Of a DNA stretch of 37,639 nt, positions 5,220 through 33,407 are shown in pieces. The DNA is from a virus. A program made the position numbers and the translations under genes. A model generated the notes under the pieces. That model was given only the letters and a program-made list of their open reading frames with translations, did no database searches and had not been told where the DNA came from. Positions within the stretch are counted from its first letter, which is position 1. Each line of letters begins with the position of its first letter. The stretch covers positions 1 to 37,639 of the IMG/VR virus record IMGVR_UViG_3300012002_000098; one strand, written 5' to 3'.

Positions 5220-6684
5220 GTTAGCCACTCAGCTTGACCCCGAACAGACGGCCGCTAATCAGCTATGGCAGCCTGACCCAAGCAACGAGCCGCAACAGCT
5301 TGCTTATAAGCTGGCGATGGACGTTGACGAGATGGGGTTCGGTGGGCAGGCCGGCGGCGGCAAGACGGACTTGGCGCTAGGGCTGGCCGGCACGCTGTTC
5401 TATCGCACGCTGTTAATCCGGCGGACGTTTCCGCAACTGAAAGGCATCATCGAGCGCGGTAACGAGATTTACCCGGCGTCGTATGTGGCCGGCACAAAAA
5501 GTTATTGGCGATTCGGCAAGCGGCTGATCGAACTCGGTCACCTGCAATACGAAAAGAACTGGAAGAACTACCAAGGGCAGCCGCGTGAGTTGTTCGCAGT
5601 TGACGAGGCGGCGGAGTTCCCGGAAGCGCCGTTGCGTAAGATCAGCGCGTGGAACCGGAGCGCAGCCGGACGGCACACACTCACGCTGTATTTGTTCAAC
5701 CCGCCCACCGAGCCGGAGGGCGAGTGGGTGATCCGCTACTTTGCGCCATGGATTGATCCAGATCATCCGAACCCGGCTAAGTCTGGGGAGATTCGCTACT
5801 TTGCCACCATCAACGATGAGCAGGTAGAAGTAGACTCGCCGGAGCCGTTCGATCACCCCGACGAGGGGCTGGTGCGACCGAGTAAGCGCACGTTCATTGC
5901 GGCGTCTCGGCACGACAACAGCTATCTAGGCGAGGAGTACGAGCGCCGGCTGCAAAGTACACCGGAGCCACTGAAGACGATGCTCATGACGGGCGACATG
6001 ACCGTCGGGCAGAAGGAAAACCCGTGGCAAGTCATCCCGACGGCGTGGGTACTGCAAGCCCAGGAGCGATGGAAAGCGCAGCAGCAGCCCGACGTGGCGC
6101 TGCGTGCGGCCGGCGTTGACGTGGCGCGTGGTGGTGACGATAACACGGCTATTGCCCCACTGCGGGGCGTGTGGTTTGACGAGCTGACGGTGCGGCCGGG
6201 CATTGAGACACCAAACGGTAAGAGCGTGGCGGACTTGACGTATGAGGTGCTTGGTGAGGCGGACGTGGACGTGTTCGTGGACGTGATCGGCGTCGGCGCG
6301 TCGGCATATGATGCGCTGCGGGAAAACTATCACTACAACACGCGAGCGGTCAACAACTCCGGTAGCGCCAAGCACGCCAAGGACAAAAGCGGCAAGTACG
6401 GCTTTGCCAATGTGCGGAGCTGGTCATACTGGACGCTACGGGAGGCACTAAGCCCGGAATCGGGCGAAGAAATCGCACTCCCGCCAGGGCGTGATATCCG
6501 ACTGGAGCTATGCGCCCCACATTACCGGGTACGAAATGGAAGGTACGTGGTTGAGCCAAAGGAAGATATTGTGAAGCGGTTGGGCTACTCGCCGGACAAA
6601 GCCGACGCCATTGTGATGGCGTGGCACGGAGTGAATAACAGCCGCCGAATTACATTTGACGAGGATAGTATTCAAACGTTATGA
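5209..6684 (+). CDS. terL: Terminase large subunit (ATPase and nuclease)
   Basis: 491 residues counted from ATG 5209. Walker A GQAGGGKT ends at Thr53. Walker B LFAVDEAAEF carries Asp132 and Glu133. The C-terminal RNase H-like nuclease has acidic residues in GVDVARGGDD (Asp304), VFVDVIGVG (Asp358) and DKADAIVMAW near the end. It packages DNA into the prohead and cuts the concatemer. An in-frame ATG at 5143 (513 residues) would overlap terS by 77 bp; 5209 is preferred because the conserved region begins there, although its ribosome site is weak. Stop and portal start overlap (ATGA). Confidence 0.93.
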   Translation: MLSELATQLDPEQTAANQLWQPDPSNEPQQLAYKLAMDVDEMGFGGQAGGGKTDLALGLAGTLFYRTLLIRRTFPQLKGIIERGNEIYPASYVAGTKSYWRFGKRLIELGHLQYEKNWKNYQGQPRELFAVDEAAEFPEAPLRKISAWNRSAAGRHTLTLYLFNPPTEPEGEWVIRYFAPWIDPDHPNPAKSGEIRYFATINDEQVEVDSPEPFDHPDEGLVRPSKRTFIAASRHDNSYLGEEYERRLQSTPEPLKTMLMTGDMTVGQKENPWQVIPTAWVLQAQERWKAQQQPDVALRAAGVDVARGGDDNTAIAPLRGVWFDELTVRPGIETPNGKSVADLTYEVLGEADVDVFVDVIGVGASAYDALRENYHYNTRAVNNSGSAKHAKDKSGKYGFANVRSWSYWTLREALSPESGEEIALPPGRDIRLELCAPHYRVRNGRYVVEPKEDIVKRLGYSPDKADAIVMAWHGVNNSRRITFDEDSIQTL

Positions 6685-9224
6685 GCATACTCAACCGTGT
6701 ACAACGCGCATGGCAGGCGCTGACAACTGATTCATCGCCCAAGCGTGGGTACTGGGGTGGCTATAACGATGCACACGGCTGGGCCGATGCTGGCATCAAC
6801 CGCAAAAACAATTTTGTTGTAGGGGCGATGGGTAGCGCCCTTGCCTACCAAGCCGTGCCCGATTTACGGGCGGCGGTGGATGTCATCGCGGAGAATCTGG
6901 CCACTGTGCCGTTGGTGGTGCGGGACGAAGACGGGAATGAGGTGGCCCGGAGTGATCATAACCCGGACGACAGCGCGGCGCTCAAGATGCTGATGGAAGC
7001 GCACGCGGGCGAAGTGCCGCTGATGCAAGCGTGGGGTTATAGTCAACTGCTATACGGGTTTACGGTTGTCGAAAAGGTGATGAGCGAGGGTGACGGCCGT
7101 AAACGCATTACTGGCTTGGAGTGGTTGAACCCGCTGATGCTGAGCTTGCAGGACCCGCACGGATACATTGACGAGATTCTTTATTCCGGGTACGGGCGCT
7201 TTGCGCGTTATGAGCGCGATGAGGTAATTTACACGCGGGTATTCGGGCCGATGAGCGAAGAGCGCGGCTACGCACCAGTGTGGTCGGTGCTGGCGAAGGC
7301 GAACCTAGCACTTGACTTCGACCGGTTTGTGCTGGCGTTTATGGATAACGGTGGTGTGCCGGGCGTGATTGCCACGCCGAAAAACGGGCATGATATTTCA
7401 ACGGACGACATTAAGCGCCTCACGGACTTGTGGCGGCGCGAGTTTAAAGGCGTCAATAACTTTTTTAAGCCGTACATCACGACGCACCCGATGGACTACG
7501 AAGTTATCGATATGCAGAACTTCGATAAGGTTCTGCCGATGGAAGACCGGATCATCGCTGCCATTCAGCGCATGTTGCGCGTGCCACCTTCAATGCTGGG
7601 CGATTCCAAGGATAGCCCGTATCAATTTTCGTCCGATAAGAAAAACTCATTCATGCAGACGGCTGTCAAGCCATATGCCGGGCAAATTGAAGGCGCGTTG
7701 AATAAATATTTTATGCCGTTGGCTGCGCCCTGGGGGCACACGGCACACTTTGACTTTAGTGTGTTTGAGCCGACAACAGAGATGGACGAGCGACGACGGG
7801 CCATTGCCGAGCGTGATTGGCTCACGGCAGGGATTACGCTTGGCGAGTACCGCGAGCGACGCGGAGAGACGCCTTACGGTGGCGCATTGGATGACTTGGT
7901 ATTTGTACCGGGATTTGATATGCCGGTCCCAAAGTCCGAGGTGGGCGAGTTATGGCGCTATCGATTGCCGATGCTTGGTAAGCAAAATAGCGGGGGATCA
8001 TTGCCGGAGCTGTCGGCAACCGGTCCGCCGAATACCGCGTCCGGCTTACCTAGCCTCAGGGGCGCGCCCGCGCAGACAACGTTTAGCCCGGTGACCTACA
8101 ACGGGGTGACGGTGCAAGCCTCGCCGGTTCAGCCGTCCAGTCGGGACGACAAGAAGTTTATGCGCTGGGTTCGATACGACGAGCAAGAACGGCTTGTGCA
8201 TTGGGGTCAGCCGGGCGAGGATATGGAGCGGGATAACGACGAGGCGCGCGAGAACTTCATGGCGCGTCACAACTGCGATGAAAAACGTGACCCGTTTCGC
8301 GCGGGCTTTTGGGCGTGCTGGGCATGGCAACCGTCGGCAGAGGTGCGGACTACCGGATGCGGACACGATCACGCGCGCGACGTTGGCATGAACGTGGTTG
8401 ATGCGATTGAGGTGCAGCCGCTACCCGATAACGGCGATATGCACGAGGAAATCGACAAGTGGTGTAACTTTAAGCTGAAGCGCTACAAGCAGAAAAATCC
8501 GCGGGCGTTCAATCCGGAAGCAACGCGGGGCGATCTGGGAGACTGGATACAGGCGCAGCTTGAGCAAGCGAAGAATACGCCGGAAGCAATCCAAGGCGTG
8601 TTCGAGGCGGCGCACGAGCGGGTGCGGAATGCCGAGAAGGCAATCCAGGCGACACGGTTGCTGTATGAAGGTGAGGTTGCTGATTTGATTGAGGCGGCGC
8701 GCAGCGGCGATATTACCCGTCGGCAGTTTTCAGCGCGGTTCCGTAGCCGAAATAAGACCTTTGGTCGGCGCGCTTATGAGGACGGGATTACAGATGGTGG
8801 AGTGGACGTTGCAGAGATGACGAGCGACGACTTTGAGACGATGAATAACCTGATTGCCGAGCAATCACAGTATGTGTCGCGCCTAGGTGCTGTGCTGTAC
8901 GACGAGGGCATTAGCGACGCGGAGGCCGCACGGCGACCGGCGTTATGGTTTAAGAAGTCCATTATGCCGTTGTATGAGGCGGGGTTACTGAGCGCTGCTG
9001 GCGATCAAATGGTTGAGTGGGTGATGAATGGGGCGGCGGAGAACTGCGACAGTTGCCAGGCGCTGAACGGTCAGCGACATCGCCGAAGCACATTTCACAG
9101 TAACGGCTTTGTGCCCGGAGATAACGGCCATCGATCGCTGATTTGCGGCATGGGCTGCAAGTGTCGGTTTGTTCCCGTTCAAGGTAAGGCGCGCGGGCGA
9201 TTACGCGGTATTCCGACGAGGTAA
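6681..9224 (+). CDS. Portal protein fused to a MuF-like head protein
   Basis: 847 residues. Residues ~50-420 are an HK97-family portal (LRAAVDVIAENLATVPLVV near the start; PPSMLGDSKDSPYQFSSDKK in the crown region). A low-complexity linker is followed at ~520-555 by a module with the motif RHNCDEKRDPFRAGFWAC, seen in several phage head proteins. The C-terminal third is helical and ends in a Cys-rich knot: C789-DS-C792 and C822, C826, C828 in LICGMGCKC, the usual end of MuF/SPP1-gp7-type minor head proteins. Portal and MuF are normally separate adjacent genes; here they are one frame. No strong internal ribosome site is visible before the MuF part. Confidence 0.88.
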   Translation: MSILNRVQRAWQALTTDSSPKRGYWGGYNDAHGWADAGINRKNNFVVGAMGSALAYQAVPDLRAAVDVIAENLATVPLVVRDEDGNEVARSDHNPDDSAALKMLMEAHAGEVPLMQAWGYSQLLYGFTVVEKVMSEGDGRKRITGLEWLNPLMLSLQDPHGYIDEILYSGYGRFARYERDEVIYTRVFGPMSEERGYAPVWSVLAKANLALDFDRFVLAFMDNGGVPGVIATPKNGHDISTDDIKRLTDLWRREFKGVNNFFKPYITTHPMDYEVIDMQNFDKVLPMEDRIIAAIQRMLRVPPSMLGDSKDSPYQFSSDKKNSFMQTAVKPYAGQIEGALNKYFMPLAAPWGHTAHFDFSVFEPTTEMDERRRAIAERDWLTAGITLGEYRERRGETPYGGALDDLVFVPGFDMPVPKSEVGELWRYRLPMLGKQNSGGSLPELSATGPPNTASGLPSLRGAPAQTTFSPVTYNGVTVQASPVQPSSRDDKKFMRWVRYDEQERLVHWGQPGEDMERDNDEARENFMARHNCDEKRDPFRAGFWACWAWQPSAEVRTTGCGHDHARDVGMNVVDAIEVQPLPDNGDMHEEIDKWCNFKLKRYKQKNPRAFNPEATRGDLGDWIQAQLEQAKNTPEAIQGVFEAAHERVRNAEKAIQATRLLYEGEVADLIEAARSGDITRRQFSARFRSRNKTFGRRAYEDGITDGGVDVAEMTSDDFETMNNLIAEQSQYVSRLGAVLYDEGISDAEAARRPALWFKKSIMPLYEAGLLSAAGDQMVEWVMNGAAENCDSCQALNGQRHRRSTFHSNGFVPGDNGHRSLICGMGCKCRFVPVQGKARGRLRGIPTR

Positions 9225-9286: not shown

Positions 9287-12151
9287 ATGAAAACGAAAAT
9301 ACGAAAGCCAACCCGAAAAGTTGTTGGTAATGCCGCCTATGTCTATATCGACTTGGCAAACACTGACGCGATCACTGCGGTACAGCAACGGGTTATGGAC
9401 GCGATGGAAAACGTGGGCGGGATTGAGTGGCAACCGCCGGCGACGTTTCATATCACGCTGACTTATGTGAAGGACATCAGCGACGACGCTCTGGCGGATA
9501 TCGAGCCGCCGGACTTCTCAACGTTGGATATTCGGGCCGGCAGCTTGAGTCTGTTTAACAATCCTGGATCGCGCGCGCTGGTGCTGGCGGTTGACCACAC
9601 ACCGGAACTGGACGCGCTACAACGGGCGGTTTATCAATCCTTTGAGGGGTTCGAGCGCAGTGACTTTAGTAAACCGGAGGCGTACCAGCCGCATATTACG
9701 CTGGCTTATATGGACTCCAGCGGGGTGGACGTTCCATCGGTTGAGTTCGAGCCACTAAGCATAACAGCGGGCACGGTACAGTACGCCCGCGGGGAGTACG
9801 AGCCGGTTATGACGGTAACGGCGAGCGACCCGACGCCGGAGCGTAGCCTGCGTGAAAAGCTACGACTGGCAGTCGGCTGGCAACGTGCGTCGTCTCCCCC
9901 GGTGCGGTTTCTGTCCGACGGCCGCGTGCAGGGCTATCTTGTGCGCTTCACTGACCCGGATGAGCGCGACTTGTACGGGGAGTACTTCAACGAGGAGACG
10001 GACTTCCAGTTTGAGGGGTTCCCGGTAAAAGGCGCGCCGGTGCTGTATCAGCACGGGTTAGACGAGGTCGCAGAGACGGCGGTGCTGGGCAACGTGAAAA
10101 CGGTTGAGGTTCGTGAAAACCCTGACGAGGACGGCAACCGAGGTGTCTGGATCGAGGCACAACTGGACATGATGAACGATTACGTCCAGATGATACGCGA
10201 CGTACACAAGGCAGCGATGAAGAAGTTCGGTCGCGGGCTGGGCTTTAGCTCTGGCGCGCTACCGTCCACGGTGCGTGTGGACGATGAGACGGGGCACATT
10301 CTGCGCTGGGGTATTGTGGAGGGAAGTTTGACGCTGACCCCCGCTGACCCCGGCAACCAGGTCACCACAATGCGAAGCTTGGCGACCTTGTATGACGACC
10401 TGCTTAGAGAGCGGAACGCTAGAGAAGCGGGAGAGCAAGATCCCAAGCAAGCATCAATCGACAAACAATCAGCAAGGAAGGCAAAGATGGACAAGCTACA
10501 GGAAATGGTGGATGCGTTCGTCGCCAATCTCATCGACATGATGCGCGAGGACATGAACGATATGTCCGACGATGATGCTGAACGCATGGACGGCGAGGAT
10601 GACGAGCCGCTCCGCATGGACGAGGAAGATGAGGAAGCGATGCAGCAGGCTGCCGAGCGGCGAGCCGTGGCATTGCTGAAGAAAGCCAAGGCGGTGATGG
10701 ATGCCGAGGGCGACGCTGAGAAAGTTGAACAGGCGCAGCGCGTACTCGAAAAGAAGACCGCCGAGATCGCGCGCGTGGCAACGGATGCGTATTACGAGCA
10801 GCGCCGTCGCCGACAAATGCGACAGGGTATGACGAGTGCGGCGAAAGCGCGCAGGGGCACGGCGAAGAAGTGGCAGGTCGGCGGGGCGAGCGAGCAGGCA
10901 GCACGGGAGAATCAGCGGGGCAATGGTATCGAGGTATACGGCAAGTGGCACAACGCCACCGCTGAAGACATGAGCTACTACGCCATGGTCAAGAGCTTCA
11001 AGCAGCGCCAGAATGGCGGCGGGCGGTGGACGCCTGACCAGAAGTTCATGCGCGAGCTGTCTGACAAGGTCGTAAGCGGCTACCAAAAGCGCAAGCTGGA
11101 CGTGCCCGACACCACGATCCGCTCCGCACATGCAATTAAGGCGGATGAGCTGGACTACTCGACGCAGGTCGGGTTCGGTGATGAGTGGGTTCCGGAGCTA
11201 TGGTCGGATCAGGTATGGCGTCGGGCGCGGCTAGAGAACCGCATTCTGCCGCTGTTCCGTTCGCTCGAAATGCCCTCGGATCCGTACAAGTTGCCAGTCG
11301 AAGGCAGTGATCCCAGCGTGTACCACGTTCCGGAGACGCAGGACGAATCCGAGTTAACGCTATCCGGCAGCGGTAACCCGATCCCGGACAGCAAGCTCGG
11401 CACAAACAACGTCACCATCAGTGCGAGCAAACTGGGATTGCGGATGGGTATGTCGTTGGAACTGGTCGAGGATGCGATTATCGATGTGGTGGCCATGGCG
11501 CGCGAACAGGCCCAGCGCGCCATCATGGACGCCATCGACAACGTGTTGCTAAACGGTGACACCGAAACGGACGCAACCGGCAACATCAATAGCGACGACA
11601 GCGCCCCGGCGGCCGGGTCTAAGTATCTCGCGTTTGACGGCATTCTGAAGAGCGCGCTTGTGGACGACGCCAGTCGGTCGGTGGATGGTGGCGGCACAGC
11701 GATCACACTCTCCAAGATTCGTAATATGCGCTTTGCAATGCCCACGCAGTACGCCCAACGTCCGGCTGACCTGGCGTACATTGTCGGCGGTGAGGTATTC
11801 GCATCTCTGCTCGATCTAGATGCGTTCCTGACGATGGACAAGGTCGGGGATCAGGCGACTATCCTCAGCGGCATGATCGGCACGATTGACGGCACGCCGG
11901 TTATTACGAGCGCCGAGTTCGGGCTTGCAGAGGCGGACGGGAAGCAATCCGCAACGCCGGCCAATAACACGCTGGGGCGCATGGCGACGGTGTTCCGTCC
12001 GAACTGGTACGTGGGGTATCGCCGCCGGGTTACGCCACATATCGATTACCTGTCTTACTACGACAGCTATCAGATGACCGTGACGGTGCGTCTCGGTTTT
12101 GTCCCGCAGAATGATGACAGCGCATCGGTGCTGTACAACCTGCTGGTCTAA
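9287..12151 (+). CDS. 2H phosphoesterase - prohead protease - scaffold - major capsid polyprotein
   Basis: 954 residues in four parts. (1) Residues ~13-178 are a 2H phosphoesterase (LigT/2'-5' RNA ligase fold) with both catalytic motifs, FHITLTY (His55, Thr57) and PHITLAY (His136, Thr138). (2) Residues ~200-380 are an HK97-type prohead protease, with His256 in LYQHGLDE, Ser322 in GLGFSSG and EGSLTLTPADPG at 346-356. (3) Residues ~401-510 are a charged helical scaffold (delta-domain-like). (4) Residues ~514-954 are an HK97-fold major capsid protein. The protease should cut scaffold from capsid during maturation. ATG 9287 follows GGGAGGATAA. Protease-capsid fusions are known; the extra N-terminal 2H enzyme is the unusual part. 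An internal start at 10487 is described separately. Confidence 0.9.
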   Translation: MKTKIRKPTRKVVGNAAYVYIDLANTDAITAVQQRVMDAMENVGGIEWQPPATFHITLTYVKDISDDALADIEPPDFSTLDIRAGSLSLFNNPGSRALVLAVDHTPELDALQRAVYQSFEGFERSDFSKPEAYQPHITLAYMDSSGVDVPSVEFEPLSITAGTVQYARGEYEPVMTVTASDPTPERSLREKLRLAVGWQRASSPPVRFLSDGRVQGYLVRFTDPDERDLYGEYFNEETDFQFEGFPVKGAPVLYQHGLDEVAETAVLGNVKTVEVRENPDEDGNRGVWIEAQLDMMNDYVQMIRDVHKAAMKKFGRGLGFSSGALPSTVRVDDETGHILRWGIVEGSLTLTPADPGNQVTTMRSLATLYDDLLRERNAREAGEQDPKQASIDKQSARKAKMDKLQEMVDAFVANLIDMMREDMNDMSDDDAERMDGEDDEPLRMDEEDEEAMQQAAERRAVALLKKAKAVMDAEGDAEKVEQAQRVLEKKTAEIARVATDAYYEQRRRRQMRQGMTSAAKARRGTAKKWQVGGASEQAARENQRGNGIEVYGKWHNATAEDMSYYAMVKSFKQRQNGGGRWTPDQKFMRELSDKVVSGYQKRKLDVPDTTIRSAHAIKADELDYSTQVGFGDEWVPELWSDQVWRRARLENRILPLFRSLEMPSDPYKLPVEGSDPSVYHVPETQDESELTLSGSGNPIPDSKLGTNNVTISASKLGLRMGMSLELVEDAIIDVVAMAREQAQRAIMDAIDNVLLNGDTETDATGNINSDDSAPAAGSKYLAFDGILKSALVDDASRSVDGGGTAITLSKIRNMRFAMPTQYAQRPADLAYIVGGEVFASLLDLDAFLTMDKVGDQATILSGMIGTIDGTPVITSAEFGLAEADGKQSATPANNTLGRMATVFRPNWYVGYRRRVTPHIDYLSYYDSYQMTVTVRLGFVPQNDDSASVLYNLLV
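10475..10489 (+). promoter_or_regulatory. Internal ribosome site and start giving scaffold-capsid protein
   Basis: AGGAAGG (10475-10481), five bases, then an in-frame ATG (10487-10489, residue Met401). The spacing and strength match the best starts in this window. The start falls exactly between the protease domain and the scaffold helix (MDKLQEMVDAF). Initiation here would make a 554-residue scaffold-capsid protein (10487-12151) without the 2H and protease parts. This would explain how a capsid, needed in hundreds of copies, is encoded in one frame with enzymes needed in few. Confidence 0.65.
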
Positions 12152-28615: not shown

Positions 28616-28927
28616 CTAATCTCCTATGTCTTTACCTTGTGATTTAGTGTAATTTTGCACATCTTCGTCGCAGGTGTATCCTTTTCGCAGTCTGGCACAC
28701 ATTGCGCCTACAGTAATACCGACTGCCTCCGCAGCTACCGTTCTAGACGGATAATTCACACCATTCCATGTACATGGTTTCTTTTTGTCGTTGTTGATGT
28801 TCGCTTCAATTTCTTCGTCGCAGGTATAACCGTTTTTGAGGCGTGCCAACATTGCCTCTGGCGTAATGCCAACTGCACGCGCGGCAGCACTCACCGATTT
28901 ATATTGGATACCGTTCCATCTCCTCAC
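28616..28927 (-). CDS. Two-unit IENR1/NUMOD1-like HTH repeat protein
   Basis: The frame carries two 40-residue repeat units: 28927-28808 and 28777-28658. The second is complete (PCTWNGVNY...GYTCDEDV); the first lacks the leading P-C-T and begins VRRWNG. A short basic end follows. The start is uncertain: GTG 28927 and TTG 28981 are the only candidates, both inside the 3' end of the ASCH gene and without a ribosome site. The first unit may thus have lost its own start or may once have been fused to the ASCH protein, whose frame differs by one base. Presumed DNA binding by analogy with IENR1 motifs. Confidence 0.6.
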   Translation of the reverse strand: MRRWNGIQYKSVSAAARAVGITPEAMLARLKNGYTCDEEIEANINNDKKKPCTWNGVNYPSRTVAAEAVGITVGAMCARLRKGYTCDEDVQNYTKSQGKDIGD

Positions 28928-29228
28928 TGATCTGGCGCACGTCTTGCTGGAGGCGAATCCCCGTGATTCGGATACGGGCAATGCCTTTCTTGCCGCGGCC
29001 GGGCTGGACGGCGTAGGTATTGCCCGGCCACCACTTGCGCCGGAAGTCGATAAACTTTCCGTCCTTTTCGTAGCGGTACACCACGCCGATTCGTGAACCG
29101 TCCGTCATTGCTGTGCAATAGCCGTCGCGGTCGTAGAGGCCGCTTGTGCTATCCATGGCTTTGACGAGGCGGCGGGTTTGGGTTTTCTCGCCGCTGAGCA
29201 CGGCGTCGATGGTGTGTTGGAAGATCAT
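28899..29228 (-). CDS. ASCH-domain protein
   Basis: 109 residues. The N-terminus MIFQHTIDAVLSGEKTQTRR is the signature of phage ASCH proteins (G-x-K-T-x-T-R-R at residues 13-20), followed by the barrel strands and the W-x-x-G-x-x-Y-A-V element (WWPGNTYAVQPGR). ASCH is a PUA-related RNA-binding fold; some members act on modified nucleosides or tRNA. The start overlaps the upstream stop as TAATG. The two-repeat gene begins inside its 3' end. An apparently longer frame to the right belongs to the overlapping repeat gene and is not used. Confidence 0.8.
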   Translation of the reverse strand: MIFQHTIDAVLSGEKTQTRRLVKAMDSTSGLYDRDGYCTAMTDGSRIGVVYRYEKDGKFIDFRRKWWPGNTYAVQPGRGKKGIARIRITGIRLQQDVRQISEEMERYPI

Positions 29229-29797
29229 TATGCGAGTTCTCCTGTGTAGGTTGCGGCCGTGTTGGCTTGTAGGTAGCGGCGGACACGGATTTCCGGCGCG
29301 TAACCGGTGATTAGGTGGCGGTAGTGCGGGTCCTCGTGGGAGAGAACGATATAGCGCTTGTCCGCGAGCCGAACGGCAAAGAGCAGCGTGCAGGTGGCGC
29401 GGCCGGTCGGTGGGGTGATGTGGCGCAGATGATTGCTGGGGAGCAGGGCTTCCGCGCGGTTGCCGGTCTGGGTAGCGAGGCGGACGCCGTAGACGGTTCC
29501 CCGCCGGTACAGCTCGCGCTGAACGATGTTGAGGACGCGGTAGCCGCTGGCGGAGAGCAAACACGGGTACTTGTCCGGGTTGCCCGCCACCGCCTCTACG
29601 GTGACGGGGGTTGTGCGGCGGATGTCCGGGGTGTGCTGCGACGACAGGCTTCGGAGCGCCGGCCCGCGCTCCATGTCGGCGTCGCAGGTGTAGCCTTTTT
29701 CCAAGCGCCGGTGCATGGCGTCGGGGGTAATGCCTTCGTACTCGGCAGCGGCGGCAACTGATCTGTGCTGGATGCCGTTCCAGGTGCAGGATTTCAT
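29228..29797 (-). CDS. Protein with one HTH repeat unit fused to an unknown domain
   Basis: 189 residues, AAGGAG eight bases before ATG 29797. Residues 3-42 are one repeat unit (SCTWNGIQHRSV...GYTCDADM). Residues ~55-189 form a separate alpha/beta domain of unknown family (LLSASGYRVLNIVQRELYRR; TGRATCTLLFAVRLADKRYI; VRRYLQANTAATYTGEL). A single DNA-reading unit joined to another domain is the layout of homing-type or methylation-associated proteins, but no nuclease motif was found. TAATG coupling to the ASCH gene. Confidence 0.7.
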   Translation of the reverse strand: MKSCTWNGIQHRSVAAAAEYEGITPDAMHRRLEKGYTCDADMERGPALRSLSSQHTPDIRRTTPVTVEAVAGNPDKYPCLLSASGYRVLNIVQRELYRRGTVYGVRLATQTGNRAEALLPSNHLRHITPPTGRATCTLLFAVRLADKRYIVLSHEDPHYRHLITGYAPEIRVRRYLQANTAATYTGELA

Positions 29798-29811
29798 AGC
29801 TATTACTCCTT

Positions 29812-30369
29812 TTATCTTAAGTCGGCGTCGCAGGTGTAGCCGCTGCGAACACGCCCGATCATGGTGGACTTGTGCACGCCTTCTGCACGGGCAGCGGCGG
29901 CAATAGTCGGATATTCGACCCCGTTCCAGGTACAGGGGCGATTCTGTGGGGTGATGTCATCGTCACAGGTGTAGCCGTTGCGGACGCGGTAAAACATGGC
30001 GTTATAGGTGATACCGATTGCTTTTGCCGCGGCTTTGATAGACGGATACTCGACCCCGTTCCAGGTGCACGGCTTGCGTGGCGGTCCGAGCCTGGGCAGG
30101 TCATCGTCACAGGTGTAGCCAGCGTTGACATATTTGAGCATGGAGGCATAGCAGACGTAGTTGGCGCGGGCAGCGGCGGCGATAGTGGGATATTGGACGC
30201 CGTTCCACACGCACGGTGTCGCGTTTGGCTGGTTGAGGTCATCGTCGCCGGTGTGGCCATTGCGGATGCGTTGCTGCATTGTCGCGTAACTGACACCTTC
30301 GGCGCGAGCGGCAGCCGCTATAGATTCGTAGCGGACGCCGTTCCAGGTGCACGGTTTCTTTTTGGACAT
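29812..30369 (-). CDS. Four-unit IENR1/NUMOD1-like HTH repeat protein
   Basis: 185 residues made almost entirely of four 40-residue units (6-45, 52-91, 100-139, 145-184) joined by 5-8 residue linkers. Each unit has the frame P-C-[TV]-W-N-G-V, then AAAxA, a turn, a variable stretch before and after a fixed Met, and GYTCDDD; unit 1 has GHTGDDD instead, losing the second Cys. The pattern resembles IENR1/NUMOD1 helix-turn-helix motifs of homing endonucleases, without any nuclease domain. AAGGAG of this gene lies in the end of the methyltransferase gene, so the two are co-translated. Likely a modular DNA-binding protein; target unknown. Confidence 0.75.
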   Translation of the reverse strand: MSKKKPCTWNGVRYESIAAAARAEGVSYATMQQRIRNGHTGDDDLNQPNATPCVWNGVQYPTIAAAARANYVCYASMLKYVNAGYTCDDDLPRLGPPRKPCTWNGVEYPSIKAAAKAIGITYNAMFYRVRNGYTCDDDITPQNRPCTWNGVEYPTIAAAARAEGVHKSTMIGRVRSGYTCDADLR

Positions 30370-30373
30370 GGGG

Positions 30374-31531
30374 TTAGGTCTCCTTTTGACTGCGTTCAAT
30401 CATCATGATGCGGTTGCCGATCCAATCAGCAACATTGACCGTGACAGCGTTGCCGAGCTGCTTGTAGCGTTGTGTATCTGAGCAGCACGCCGTCCAGCCA
30501 TCCGGGAAGGCTTGCAGGCGCTCACATTCTACGGGTGTCAACCGTCGGACATGGTGCGCGATATGCACCGGGTTTTGATAGTTCAACGAGTACCCCCCTT
30601 GGTTTTTTGCCTGTAGCGTGGCGCTAATTTGCCCGTTGTGGTAATGCAGATTGCGTACGTCAACCGGTTTGACGTGCACTGCATATGTCTCCGACCCCCC
30701 TTTGGCATCGCGGGCCGCGAGCGTGTGCGAAATGTCCGTGCGGATGAAGCTATCGCTCCGCTTTGCGCGGTAAGTCTGCGTGAGGATGCTTTCGTGTGCG
30801 CCTGCGTGGAGCGTATGGTGGATGCCCGGACGCGGGTTGCTCCGGTTTCTGGGGCTGGTGATCGACTTGCCGTCATAGGCGGTTGTGACAAAATGCCCGG
30901 CGGCGGGACGGCTGCCCCCGTTACGACGGCTTGGAGCGCCTGCGCTAAGCGTGGCGGCAGTGCTTTGCCCCGCGTCTCGGCGCGGCGGAGTATCCCCGCT
31001 GCTGCTTTGGCGCTCAAAAAGTACTTGGGCGGCACGTCCGTCTCCAAGATGTCCGACAATGAACAAACGCTCGCGCCGCTGGGGTACGTTGAAGTATTGG
31101 CTGTCCAGTACCCGCCAGCAGACGCCATACCCGAGTTTGACCAGCCCTCGAAGCACGACCGCAAAGTCTCGCCCGCCGTTGCTGGATAAAAGGCCGGGGA
31201 CATTCTCGATGACAACCCAGCGCGGACGAGCTTCTGATAGAACTCGCTCGAACTCGTGCCAAAGTCCGCTTCGCTCTCCAGCCAACCCTGCGCGGCGTCC
31301 GGCAATTGAAACGTCCTGGCAGGGGAAGCCGCCGCAAATAAGATCGGCTGGTGGTAAGTTGTGTTTTCCGACATGGTTCACATCCTCGAACTTCTTTATG
31401 GTTGGATAGTGCTGGTCTAGGACTTGCCGGGCGAACCTGTCCTTTTCAACCTGAGCAACGCAGGTCATGCCTGCGCGCTCGAAGCCGAGATCGAAGCCGC
31501 CGATACCCGTAAATAGGCTAATGAATTTCAC
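30374..31531 (-). CDS. C5-cytosine DNA methyltransferase
   Basis: 385 residues. Motif I SLFTGIGGFDLGFERAG (5-21), motif IV GGFPCQDVSIAGR with catalytic Cys71, motif VI ENVPG (109-113), motif VIII QRRERLFIVG (151-160), a target-recognition region at ~170-320, and motifs IX-X ending in KQLGNAV (357-363). All motifs are intact, so the enzyme should transfer a methyl group from SAM to cytosine C5. No cognate restriction enzyme is nearby, as usual for orphan phage methylases that protect virion DNA. Starts at GTG 31531 with GGAG eight bases upstream. Target sequence cannot be read from the protein. Confidence 0.93.
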   Translation of the reverse strand: MKFISLFTGIGGFDLGFERAGMTCVAQVEKDRFARQVLDQHYPTIKKFEDVNHVGKHNLPPADLICGGFPCQDVSIAGRRAGLAGERSGLWHEFERVLSEARPRWVVIENVPGLLSSNGGRDFAVVLRGLVKLGYGVCWRVLDSQYFNVPQRRERLFIVGHLGDGRAAQVLFERQSSSGDTPPRRDAGQSTAATLSAGAPSRRNGGSRPAAGHFVTTAYDGKSITSPRNRSNPRPGIHHTLHAGAHESILTQTYRAKRSDSFIRTDISHTLAARDAKGGSETYAVHVKPVDVRNLHYHNGQISATLQAKNQGGYSLNYQNPVHIAHHVRRLTPVECERLQAFPDGWTACCSDTQRYKQLGNAVTVNVADWIGNRIMMIERSQKET

Positions 31532-31535
31532 GGGG

Positions 31536-33407
31536 TTAGCTCCGATTCAGATTGAGGCGGTCAAGGCGGGCGCGCAGGTTGTGCCAGCGCTCGGTGTCCG
31601 TGAGGGTGTCGTCGGGGAATTGCTGGCGCAGGTAGCGGAGCACCAGTTGCTTGTCGTCCTCGGCGAACTCGTCGCCCGGTTCACTGGTGAGAATCTGGGT
31701 TATCACTAGCAAAACTTCGCGGTTGGTCATCTGGCGCGGCGGTTTCTTGCTGAGTGGCAGACGCGGGTAGCTGCTGGGGTCGTCTAGGTCAATGTGTAGG
31801 TCTGGCTCGGCATCGGCACACACGACCTGCTCAACGTATTCGGGCGTGAAGAAACGGTCGTGGCCGGCAAAGGTGGCGTAATCGTAGTTATTCGTCCAGT
31901 TTGTTTTGAGGTACTGGGCGGCTTGCTCGTAATCGTCCATGGCGTCCGCTAGCGACAGGCGGGGGTCGTAGTGGTCGTCGCCGGCGCTGGGGATGTACTG
32001 GGCACGGTAAACGAGTTCGTCGGTGATGAGGCTGAGTCGGTCGCGGTAGAGGGCGGCTTTAAATTCTCGGTCGGCGCGGTTGCGGTTGACTGTGTCGCCG
32101 TCAAGCGCTGCTTTCAGTCGGTCCCTGGCACGCTGACGGTTGATTGTGTCGTGGCGTTCGATGAGGACGGAGCAACAGGCGGCGTGATATGCCAGTGTGC
32201 GCGTGCTGACATTGATGAGGCTGTCGCCGTGCTCGCGGGGTGGGACGGCTAGATCGGCGAGGGCTTGGGCGTGGAGGACGTCTAGCTGCTGTTGGTACAT
32301 GTCTGGTGCGATGTGCTGAAAGCGACGCATCCAGACGCCGCGCCAGTGCGGGTTTTTCTTAACACCCCAGCCGGTGTAATTTCCCCAGTCGCCCGTGGCA
32401 TGAAACAGGATGCCTTTGTAAGCATCCGCGTAGACGCTGTGGAGTATGTGAAGCGGAAGCACGCGCTCATGTTCAGCTCTAAGCGTATCTAGCTCAGCGA
32501 CGCTGTAGCCGCGATTGCCCTGCTGCTCAATGAAATCGGCTAGGTGATAAATGTCGATAGCGAGCCGCTCGGTGGTGACGCCGGCCAACATGCTGAGGTG
32601 GGCGAACGGCTGCTCGTCGGACGGTAGCGGGTACTTATTGCGGAACTCGTCTAGATCGGCGGCTAGGTCGTGCACCATCACGTATTCGATGTAGCTGGGC
32701 GGGTAACCTTCGATGCCCAGCGGCAGGCACTCGCGCACCCAGGCCGGGGCACGGTTCCAGGCGTTGGCGGCGGCCGGCCCGGTGACGTGGCCAACGCCGG
32801 GGGCACGCTGTAGCACGTCGGGGTCACCGTTGAGGGCGTCAACGATGCTGTGCTCGAAGTGCATGACGAGATTTTTGGCGACGGCGTGCTCAATGCCGGC
32901 GCGCCCGGCCAGGTAGTTAATGGCGCGGCTGCGTTCCTTGCTGGACATCTCGCGGCGCTCTAGGCGTGGGGCCGGCCGTGGGGTGATGACGTCGGACAGG
33001 TCGCCGGGCTGCTTGGGCCGCCTGAATAGGTCGGCCGGCGTGTCGTCGTCTGGGGAGGGCGTGGGGTCAACTAAGCCCCACGACTCTAACACGTAGGCGG
33101 TATCCATTCGGGGCGGTGCGCTGAAATCAGCAGCTGATGCGTCGTCTGGGGAGGGTGTGGGTGATGGGTCCGTGGGTGGGGTGGCCGGATCAGTGTTCGG
33201 CTCCCCTGCTGCGGGTGTGTGGTGGGTGACGCGCTTGCGGAAGCGGTCAATGCGCTGCCAGTTGGTCTGGTTGAAGCCGTTGTCATTGGTATAGGTGAAC
33301 CGGACTTTGAGCAGCCGGCCGGACTCGTCGTGCTTGAGTCCGGTAATGGTGGCGATGATGTCGCCGTCGTCTAGTTTAACGTGGTCACCTACGGTGAAGG
33401 TGGTCAT
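31536..33407 (-). CDS. Large protein with SH3/KOW-like barrel and helix-hairpin-helix region
   Basis: 623 residues, AGGAG nine bases before ATG 33407. Residues 1-60 form an SH3/KOW-like barrel (FTVGDHVKLDDGDIIATITG). Residues 65-150 are a Pro/Asp-rich disordered linker. Residues ~168-217 (GIEHAVAKNLVMHFEHSIVD, then GDPDVLQRAPGVGHVTGPAA) match the helix-hairpin-helix pattern of RecD2-type helicases, but no Walker motif follows. The remainder is helical and unrecognised. Nucleic-acid binding is likely; position between two methyltransferase genes suggests DNA metabolism or modification. Confidence 0.7.
   Translation of the reverse strand: MTTFTVGDHVKLDDGDIIATITGLKHDESGRLLKVRFTYTNDNGFNQTNWQRIDRFRKRVTHHTPAAGEPNTDPATPPTDPSPTPSPDDASAADFSAPPRMDTAYVLESWGLVDPTPSPDDDTPADLFRRPKQPGDLSDVITPRPAPRLERREMSSKERSRAINYLAGRAGIEHAVAKNLVMHFEHSIVDALNGDPDVLQRAPGVGHVTGPAAANAWNRAPAWVRECLPLGIEGYPPSYIEYVMVHDLAADLDEFRNKYPLPSDEQPFAHLSMLAGVTTERLAIDIYHLADFIEQQGNRGYSVAELDTLRAEHERVLPLHILHSVYADAYKGILFHATGDWGNYTGWGVKKNPHWRGVWMRRFQHIAPDMYQQQLDVLHAQALADLAVPPREHGDSLINVSTRTLAYHAACCSVLIERHDTINRQRARDRLKAALDGDTVNRNRADREFKAALYRDRLSLITDELVYRAQYIPSAGDDHYDPRLSLADAMDDYEQAAQYLKTNWTNNYDYATFAGHDRFFTPEYVEQVVCADAEPDLHIDLDDPSSYPRLPLSKKPPRQMTNREVLLVITQILTSEPGDEFAEDDKQLVLRYLRQQFPDDTLTDTERWHNLRARLDRLNLNRS

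Follow-up and report, generated by a model that had tools for sequence, protein, structure and literature searches.

Nuclease-free arrays of NUMOD1/I-TevI-type helix-turn-helix units in the early gene block of a tailed phage

Seven helix-turn-helix (HTH) units of about 40 residues are encoded as a 4+1+2 set in three co-oriented genes at positions 28658-30354 (minus strand) of the window, which is the whole 37,639-nucleotide stretch of DNA analysed (IMG/VR virus record IMGVR_UViG_3300012002_000098). The units belong to the NUMOD1/I-TevI-type HTH family, and no nuclease domain is attached to any of the three array proteins; this nuclease-free architecture is a variant of something known. The reading preferred here, held at somewhat better than even probability, is that the proteins are free-standing, sequence-specific binders of the NUMOD1/I-TevI type which would act by site occupancy. 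Work on NUMOD-type units has dealt almost exclusively with their place in homing endonucleases. That nuclease-free arrays recur in phages and are under selection suggests an independent function for the targeting half.

Array genes and units

All three genes are read from the minus strand. Gene 1 (29812-30369, ATG at 30369, stop at 29812) encodes a 185-residue protein that consists solely of four HTH units, W1 (30235-30354), W2 (30097-30216), W3 (29953-30072) and W4 (29818-29937). Gene 2 (29228-29797) encodes a 189-residue protein with one N-terminal unit, W5 (29672-29791), and a C-terminal domain (29228-29665). Gene 3 (28616-28927) contributes two units, W6 (28808-28927) and W7 (28658-28777). 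The earlier note had given the span, the seven 40-residue units and their division over three genes, and its coordinates proved exact. The linkers between units measure 6, 8, 5 and 10 residues, within the range of 5-10 given in the note.

A strict unit motif matched five of the seven window units and nothing in 100 dinucleotide-preserving shuffles, while a profile of the unit recovered all seven, each with an E-value of about 1e-21 or better. Shuffles and E-values together rule out a chance origin of the repeats. Common to all seven units are, among others, W-N-G, AA at unit positions 15-16, M26, G33 and D37; C36, Y34 and DDD vary among them. The framework had been described as nearly invariant, which holds for W-N-G, the AA pair and M26, but not for GYTCDDD, which is exact in W2 and W3 only, nor for the N-terminal PCT, which is absent from W6.

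The C-terminal domain of gene 2 has no family match in Pfam, PHROG or NCBIfam, and its model, with a pLDDT of about 29, is too poor to use. The whole gene 2 protein is 73% identical to its counterpart in the closest relative, the 43.9-kb virus contig L006/L010 (L006 below).

Family identity and predicted fold

Against Pfam NUMOD1 (PF07453) the 185-residue protein scored 29.0 bits, above the cut-off of 22.8, and the resemblance to IENR1/NUMOD1 noticed earlier from the letters is thereby borne out for the four-unit protein; the one-unit and two-unit proteins, each taken alone, fall below the same cut-off. Against the I-TevI DNA-binding domain PF20987 the 185-residue protein scored 20.9 bits, under the 27-bit cut-off, a threshold exceeded by the relatives L058 (43.5 bits) and L071 (36.5 bits). 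A defence system was considered, but in PADLOC the units only weakly match a homing endonuclease and mad1, at 23.5 bits each.

An AlphaFold2 model of the 185-residue protein, built on a ten-row alignment, predicts two helices in HTH arrangement for every unit, preceded by a hairpin of two strands around W-N-G-V-x-Y, in agreement with the HTH fold proposed in the earlier note. The mean pLDDT of 81.3 and the pTM of 0.34 describe units that are well defined and whose mutual orientation is not, like beads on a string. In a Foldseek search of viral structures the top match of the model was 'Nuclease-associated modular DNA-binding 1' (E 4.7e-9), and phage proteins whose annotations name NUMOD1, GIY-YIG and HNH homing endonucleases were among the matches. 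Among PDB entries it matched the Paulinella DNA-binding protein 8b6e (prob 0.82, 1.4 Å over 39 columns) and, more weakly, I-TevI 1i3j (prob 0.30).

Relatives and their architectures

The W-N-G-type unit was found in about ten of the 2.9 million viral contigs scanned. A looser DNA pattern applied to the viral contigs yielded nothing beyond chance matches and added no relatives, and the strict W-N-G subfamily motif had no match in 84,980 bacterial and archaeal species genomes. Three relatives (L007, L058 and L060) join a GIY-YIG domain to three units, and L007 is additionally above the threshold for the group I intron endonuclease TIGR01453, at 77.8 bits. The nuclease-fused relatives identify the array as the DNA-targeting part of an enzyme class already known, and the sequences are best read as having a common origin with the targeting part of homing endonucleases.

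Nuclease-free arrays occur with two units (L053, L061), three units (L029) and four units (the window and L006), and a related nuclease-free family with five units is present on seven contigs; unit number thus varies between relatives. More distant free arrays are found in isolated phages, where they are annotated as 'hypothetical' or 'helix-turn-helix DNA binding domain protein'. Since free arrays are seen in several other phages, this form of a known module recurs among phages and is not peculiar to one genome. A regulator-like architecture is found in L071 (23-568), in which a DeoR-like winged HTH is fused to two units.

Among the relatives, the 4+1 arrangement is confined to L005 and L006, whose units are identical. 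L005 ends at the contig edge, leaving visible the four-unit gene and the first part of the gene for the unit and domain. L006 has the 4+1 arrangement of the window, with the two-unit gene, found in this relative only, further along the contig. The array was probably expanded by local duplication.

In the five-unit family, L052 (gene at 529-1311) and L055 are 98.7% identical before unit 4, 77% inside it and 96.7% after it, and inside the unit 4 block L052 is 94% identical to L064. The exchanged block of about 50 bp runs from the codons for V-S-A-A-A to those for A-A-A-M-T-E and covers the HTH helices of unit 4 only. By these identities unit-sized exchange does occur, as a single event in a family more distant from the window; in the window's own lineage no unit exchange was seen.

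As a separate observation, a gene of the Vibrio inovirus VfO3K6 (L009, 2191-3684, Vpf497) encodes several HTH units akin to those of the window. Its C-terminal stretch weakly matches T5orf172 and MUG113 (19.4 and 19.0 bits, just under the cut-offs), and the product is possibly a GIY-YIG-superfamily enzyme in a filamentous phage.

Variability of helix 2 and selection

Helix 2 is predicted at unit positions 23-31. Across 42 distinct units, its five exposed positions (23, 24, 27, 28 and 31) vary more than any other of the 40; when similar units were removed, position 31 dropped slightly below position 22 and others, and the remaining four exposed positions stayed at the top. In the window, the exposed residues are Y,A,Q,Q,R in W1, Y,A,L,K,N in W2, Y,N,F,Y,R in W3, K,S,I,G,R in W4, P,D,H,R,E in W5, P,E,L,A,K in W6 and V,G,C,A,R in W7. 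The mean entropy is 3.19 bits at the exposed helix-2 positions versus 2.51 bits at the other variable positions (bootstrap 95% interval of the difference 0.39-0.80, with a lower bound of 0.28 in the most reduced set), where the other variable positions are a hand-chosen set and exposure is taken from the predicted helix and not from computed solvent exposure. The variability around the fixed Met, which the first reading of the letters had placed in a recognition helix, does indeed fall mainly on the side of helix 2 that is exposed.

Relationships between units were assessed by identity tables, 40 columns being too few for a unit-level tree. In corresponding units of the window and L006, the core reading positions (22, 23, 24, 27 and 28) are 69% identical, as against 12% between different units; the framework positions are 90% identical in corresponding units and 76% between different array units. 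All five exposed residues of W1 and of W2 are kept in L006, and W4 is the unit most diverged from its counterpart (67.5% identical). Within orthologous units the recognition positions are no better conserved than the other variable ones (0.69 versus 0.71). Recognition positions are not conserved across the family, where they are the most variable, and the proposal stands in this respect; they are largely kept between the corresponding units of the two related phages.

Between the two genomes, dN/dS is 0.16 for the four-unit gene and 0.14 for the two-unit gene, as against 0.42 for the neighbouring 623-residue gene; for all unit codons it is 0.15, with a dS of 0.73. By these ratios the array genes are under purifying selection, stronger than that on the 623-residue gene. 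Positive selection on the recognition residues was considered and found no support, the orthologue dN/dS of 0.19 at these positions being purifying and not diversifying. The helix-2 pattern is what would be expected of units with individual, maintained specificities, but it would also fit old paralogues that have drifted where they are exposed. Relaxed constraint is another possible source of high variability at such positions.

Genome context and rearrangement of the locus

The arrays close the early gene block of the record, a 37.6-kb tailed-phage sequence with terminase, major head protein and replication-initiation genes. Elsewhere in the record, an ORF of 954 residues (9287-12151, plus strand) matches the RNA-ligase-type phrog_755 at its start and the major head family phrog_10 further on, and is possibly an unusual fusion. 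The 623-residue early protein mentioned above (31536-33407, minus strand) belongs to no Pfam or PHROG family and is conserved in L006 (652 residues).

The L006 counterpart of W6 is intact and reads PCKWNG. In the window, W6 is overlapped out of frame by a truncated ASCH-like gene (28899-29228, minus strand), the intact L006 counterpart of which (6146-6781) scores 20.8 bits for ASCH, slightly below the cut-off of 21.2. About 1.8 kb between the ASCH-like gene and the intact two-unit gene of L006 are missing from the window, and the missing PCT of W6 would most simply be a deletion scar. Because W6 is joined out of frame to the end of the truncated ASCH-like gene, the start of gene 3 is uncertain (GTG at 28927 or upstream). 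Directly upstream of the array lies a C5-cytosine methyltransferase gene (30374-31531, minus strand; Pfam PF00145, 242 bits), which is absent from the equivalent spot of L006/L010, where the flanking genes abut. By this comparison the early-operon stretch around the arrays is variable.

Profile searches for GIY-YIG and HNH, with stop codons read through, gave no match in the window record or in its closest relative (record G002). This is in line with the earlier statement that no nuclease domain is attached to the units, and a partner nuclease of these two families in the same genome was accordingly dropped as a candidate. Rfam gave no match in the window, and the idea that the arrays are set in a group I intron or another known RNA element was likewise rejected.

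Proposed role and alternative explanations

Sequence-specific binding of double-stranded DNA by the array proteins is likely. By analogy with I-TevI, linkers of 5-10 residues would let a single protein place several recognition helices one after another on a long DNA site. Each protein would then most likely occupy a specific site and block or recruit, which would amount to transcription control or site masking; that regulation or site masking is the biological role is given slightly less than an even chance. The analogue is the DNA-binding domain of I-TevI, which represses its own promoter without cutting. Where the spacing of the cleavage site is incorrect, this domain represses transcription independently (PMC2988022). 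For a Paracoccus phage protein with a NUMOD1 domain, a replication role was proposed earlier (PMC6536676). The array genes are part of an operon in which genes overlap or stand 4-15 nt apart, with no adjacent operator as in I-TevI. Since they closely follow other early genes, self-repression at an adjacent promoter is unlikely; control of another phage or host promoter, or site masking, would be more likely.

The alternative that survives best, in itself unlikely, is that the proteins bind DNA non-specifically or with weak specificity, as packing or nucleoid-like proteins, and that the diversity of helix 2 is drift at exposed positions. The many hydrophobic residues that the family carries at these positions would suit such a role, as would the solved relative 8b6e, which comes from a family described merely as dsDNA-binding. 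Against it, the helix-2 residues are kept in orthologous units (identical to the relative in W1 and W2) at a dS of 0.73, their entropy exceeds that of the other variable positions, and the relatives fused to a nuclease would require site specificity.

Rather unlikely is a split homing or other nuclease, in which the arrays would be targeting subunits and an unrecognised nuclease would cut the site in trans. The nearest architectures are GIY-YIG fusions, and the C-terminal domain of gene 2, together with several operon proteins without a recognised family, could hide a nuclease; but neither genome record has GIY-YIG or HNH, and free arrays recur in several other phages.

The earlier note compared the array with zinc fingers and TALEs. 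The constant framework with hypervariable helix-2 positions agrees with this comparison, as do the variation in unit number and the swap of about 50 bp confined to the HTH of unit 4 in the five-unit family. What does not follow is a regular code, with a separate short subsite for every unit and changes of specificity by unit swapping: the units are split over three proteins with unequal linker lengths, selection on the recognition positions is purifying between orthologues (dN/dS 0.19), and the exchange is a single case from a less closely related family. Such a code is a little less probable again than a split nuclease.

Decay after nuclease loss, which would make the arrays remnants of a homing endonuclease gene, is very improbable: the surroundings of the arrays do vary, a methyltransferase having been gained or lost and a 1.8-kb deletion having clipped W6, but the frames are open at a dN/dS of about 0.15 in two genomes and no nuclease remnant adjoins them, so that this reading is largely refuted for gene 1, while gene 3 could be damaged.

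Free-standing binding by site occupancy is thus retained as the preferred reading. As a family of 2-5 units with 40 residues each, the arrays offer a direct test ground for a unit-by-unit DNA-recognition code, and should such a code exist, TALE and zinc-finger arrays would gain a compact alternative. That phages use these nuclease-free 40-residue modules as a compact natural platform, with helix-2 residues swapped unit by unit to retarget site-specific binders, is considered improbable.

Comparison with known systems

The closest known system is the NUMOD1/IENR1 repeat, with which the window shares a small HTH, modular repetition and, in the four-unit protein, a score above the Pfam cut-off; NUMOD1/IENR1 is normally described as a nuclease accessory, whereas the window has 4+1+2 units without a nuclease. 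The likeness to I-TevI and other GIY-YIG homing endonucleases is through the relatives of the window unit that are fused to GIY-YIG; unlike I-TevI, the window array is without a recognised zinc finger, minor-groove helix or nuclease. The DNA-binding sCTPs of Paulinella, with more than 200 members, bind dsDNA (PMC12176269) and offer a second precedent, next to I-TevI, for the proposed mode of action. A single unit of this kind (8b6e) matches the fold predicted here and is also nuclease-free, but the sCTPs are short, organelle-targeted amoeba proteins, whereas the window encodes tandem phage arrays. Among phages, gp14 of Rhodobacter phage RcMenchie ('helix-turn-helix DNA binding domain protein'), Javan90_0003 of a Streptococcus phage and Pyei1_p22 of a Paracoccus phage have at least two units and no recognised nuclease; at about 25-36% identity in the searches they are distant relatives, and they are without the W-N-G framework. 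TALE repeats and zinc-finger arrays resemble the window array in their tandem modules, constant frame and variable reading positions, carried on an unrelated fold.
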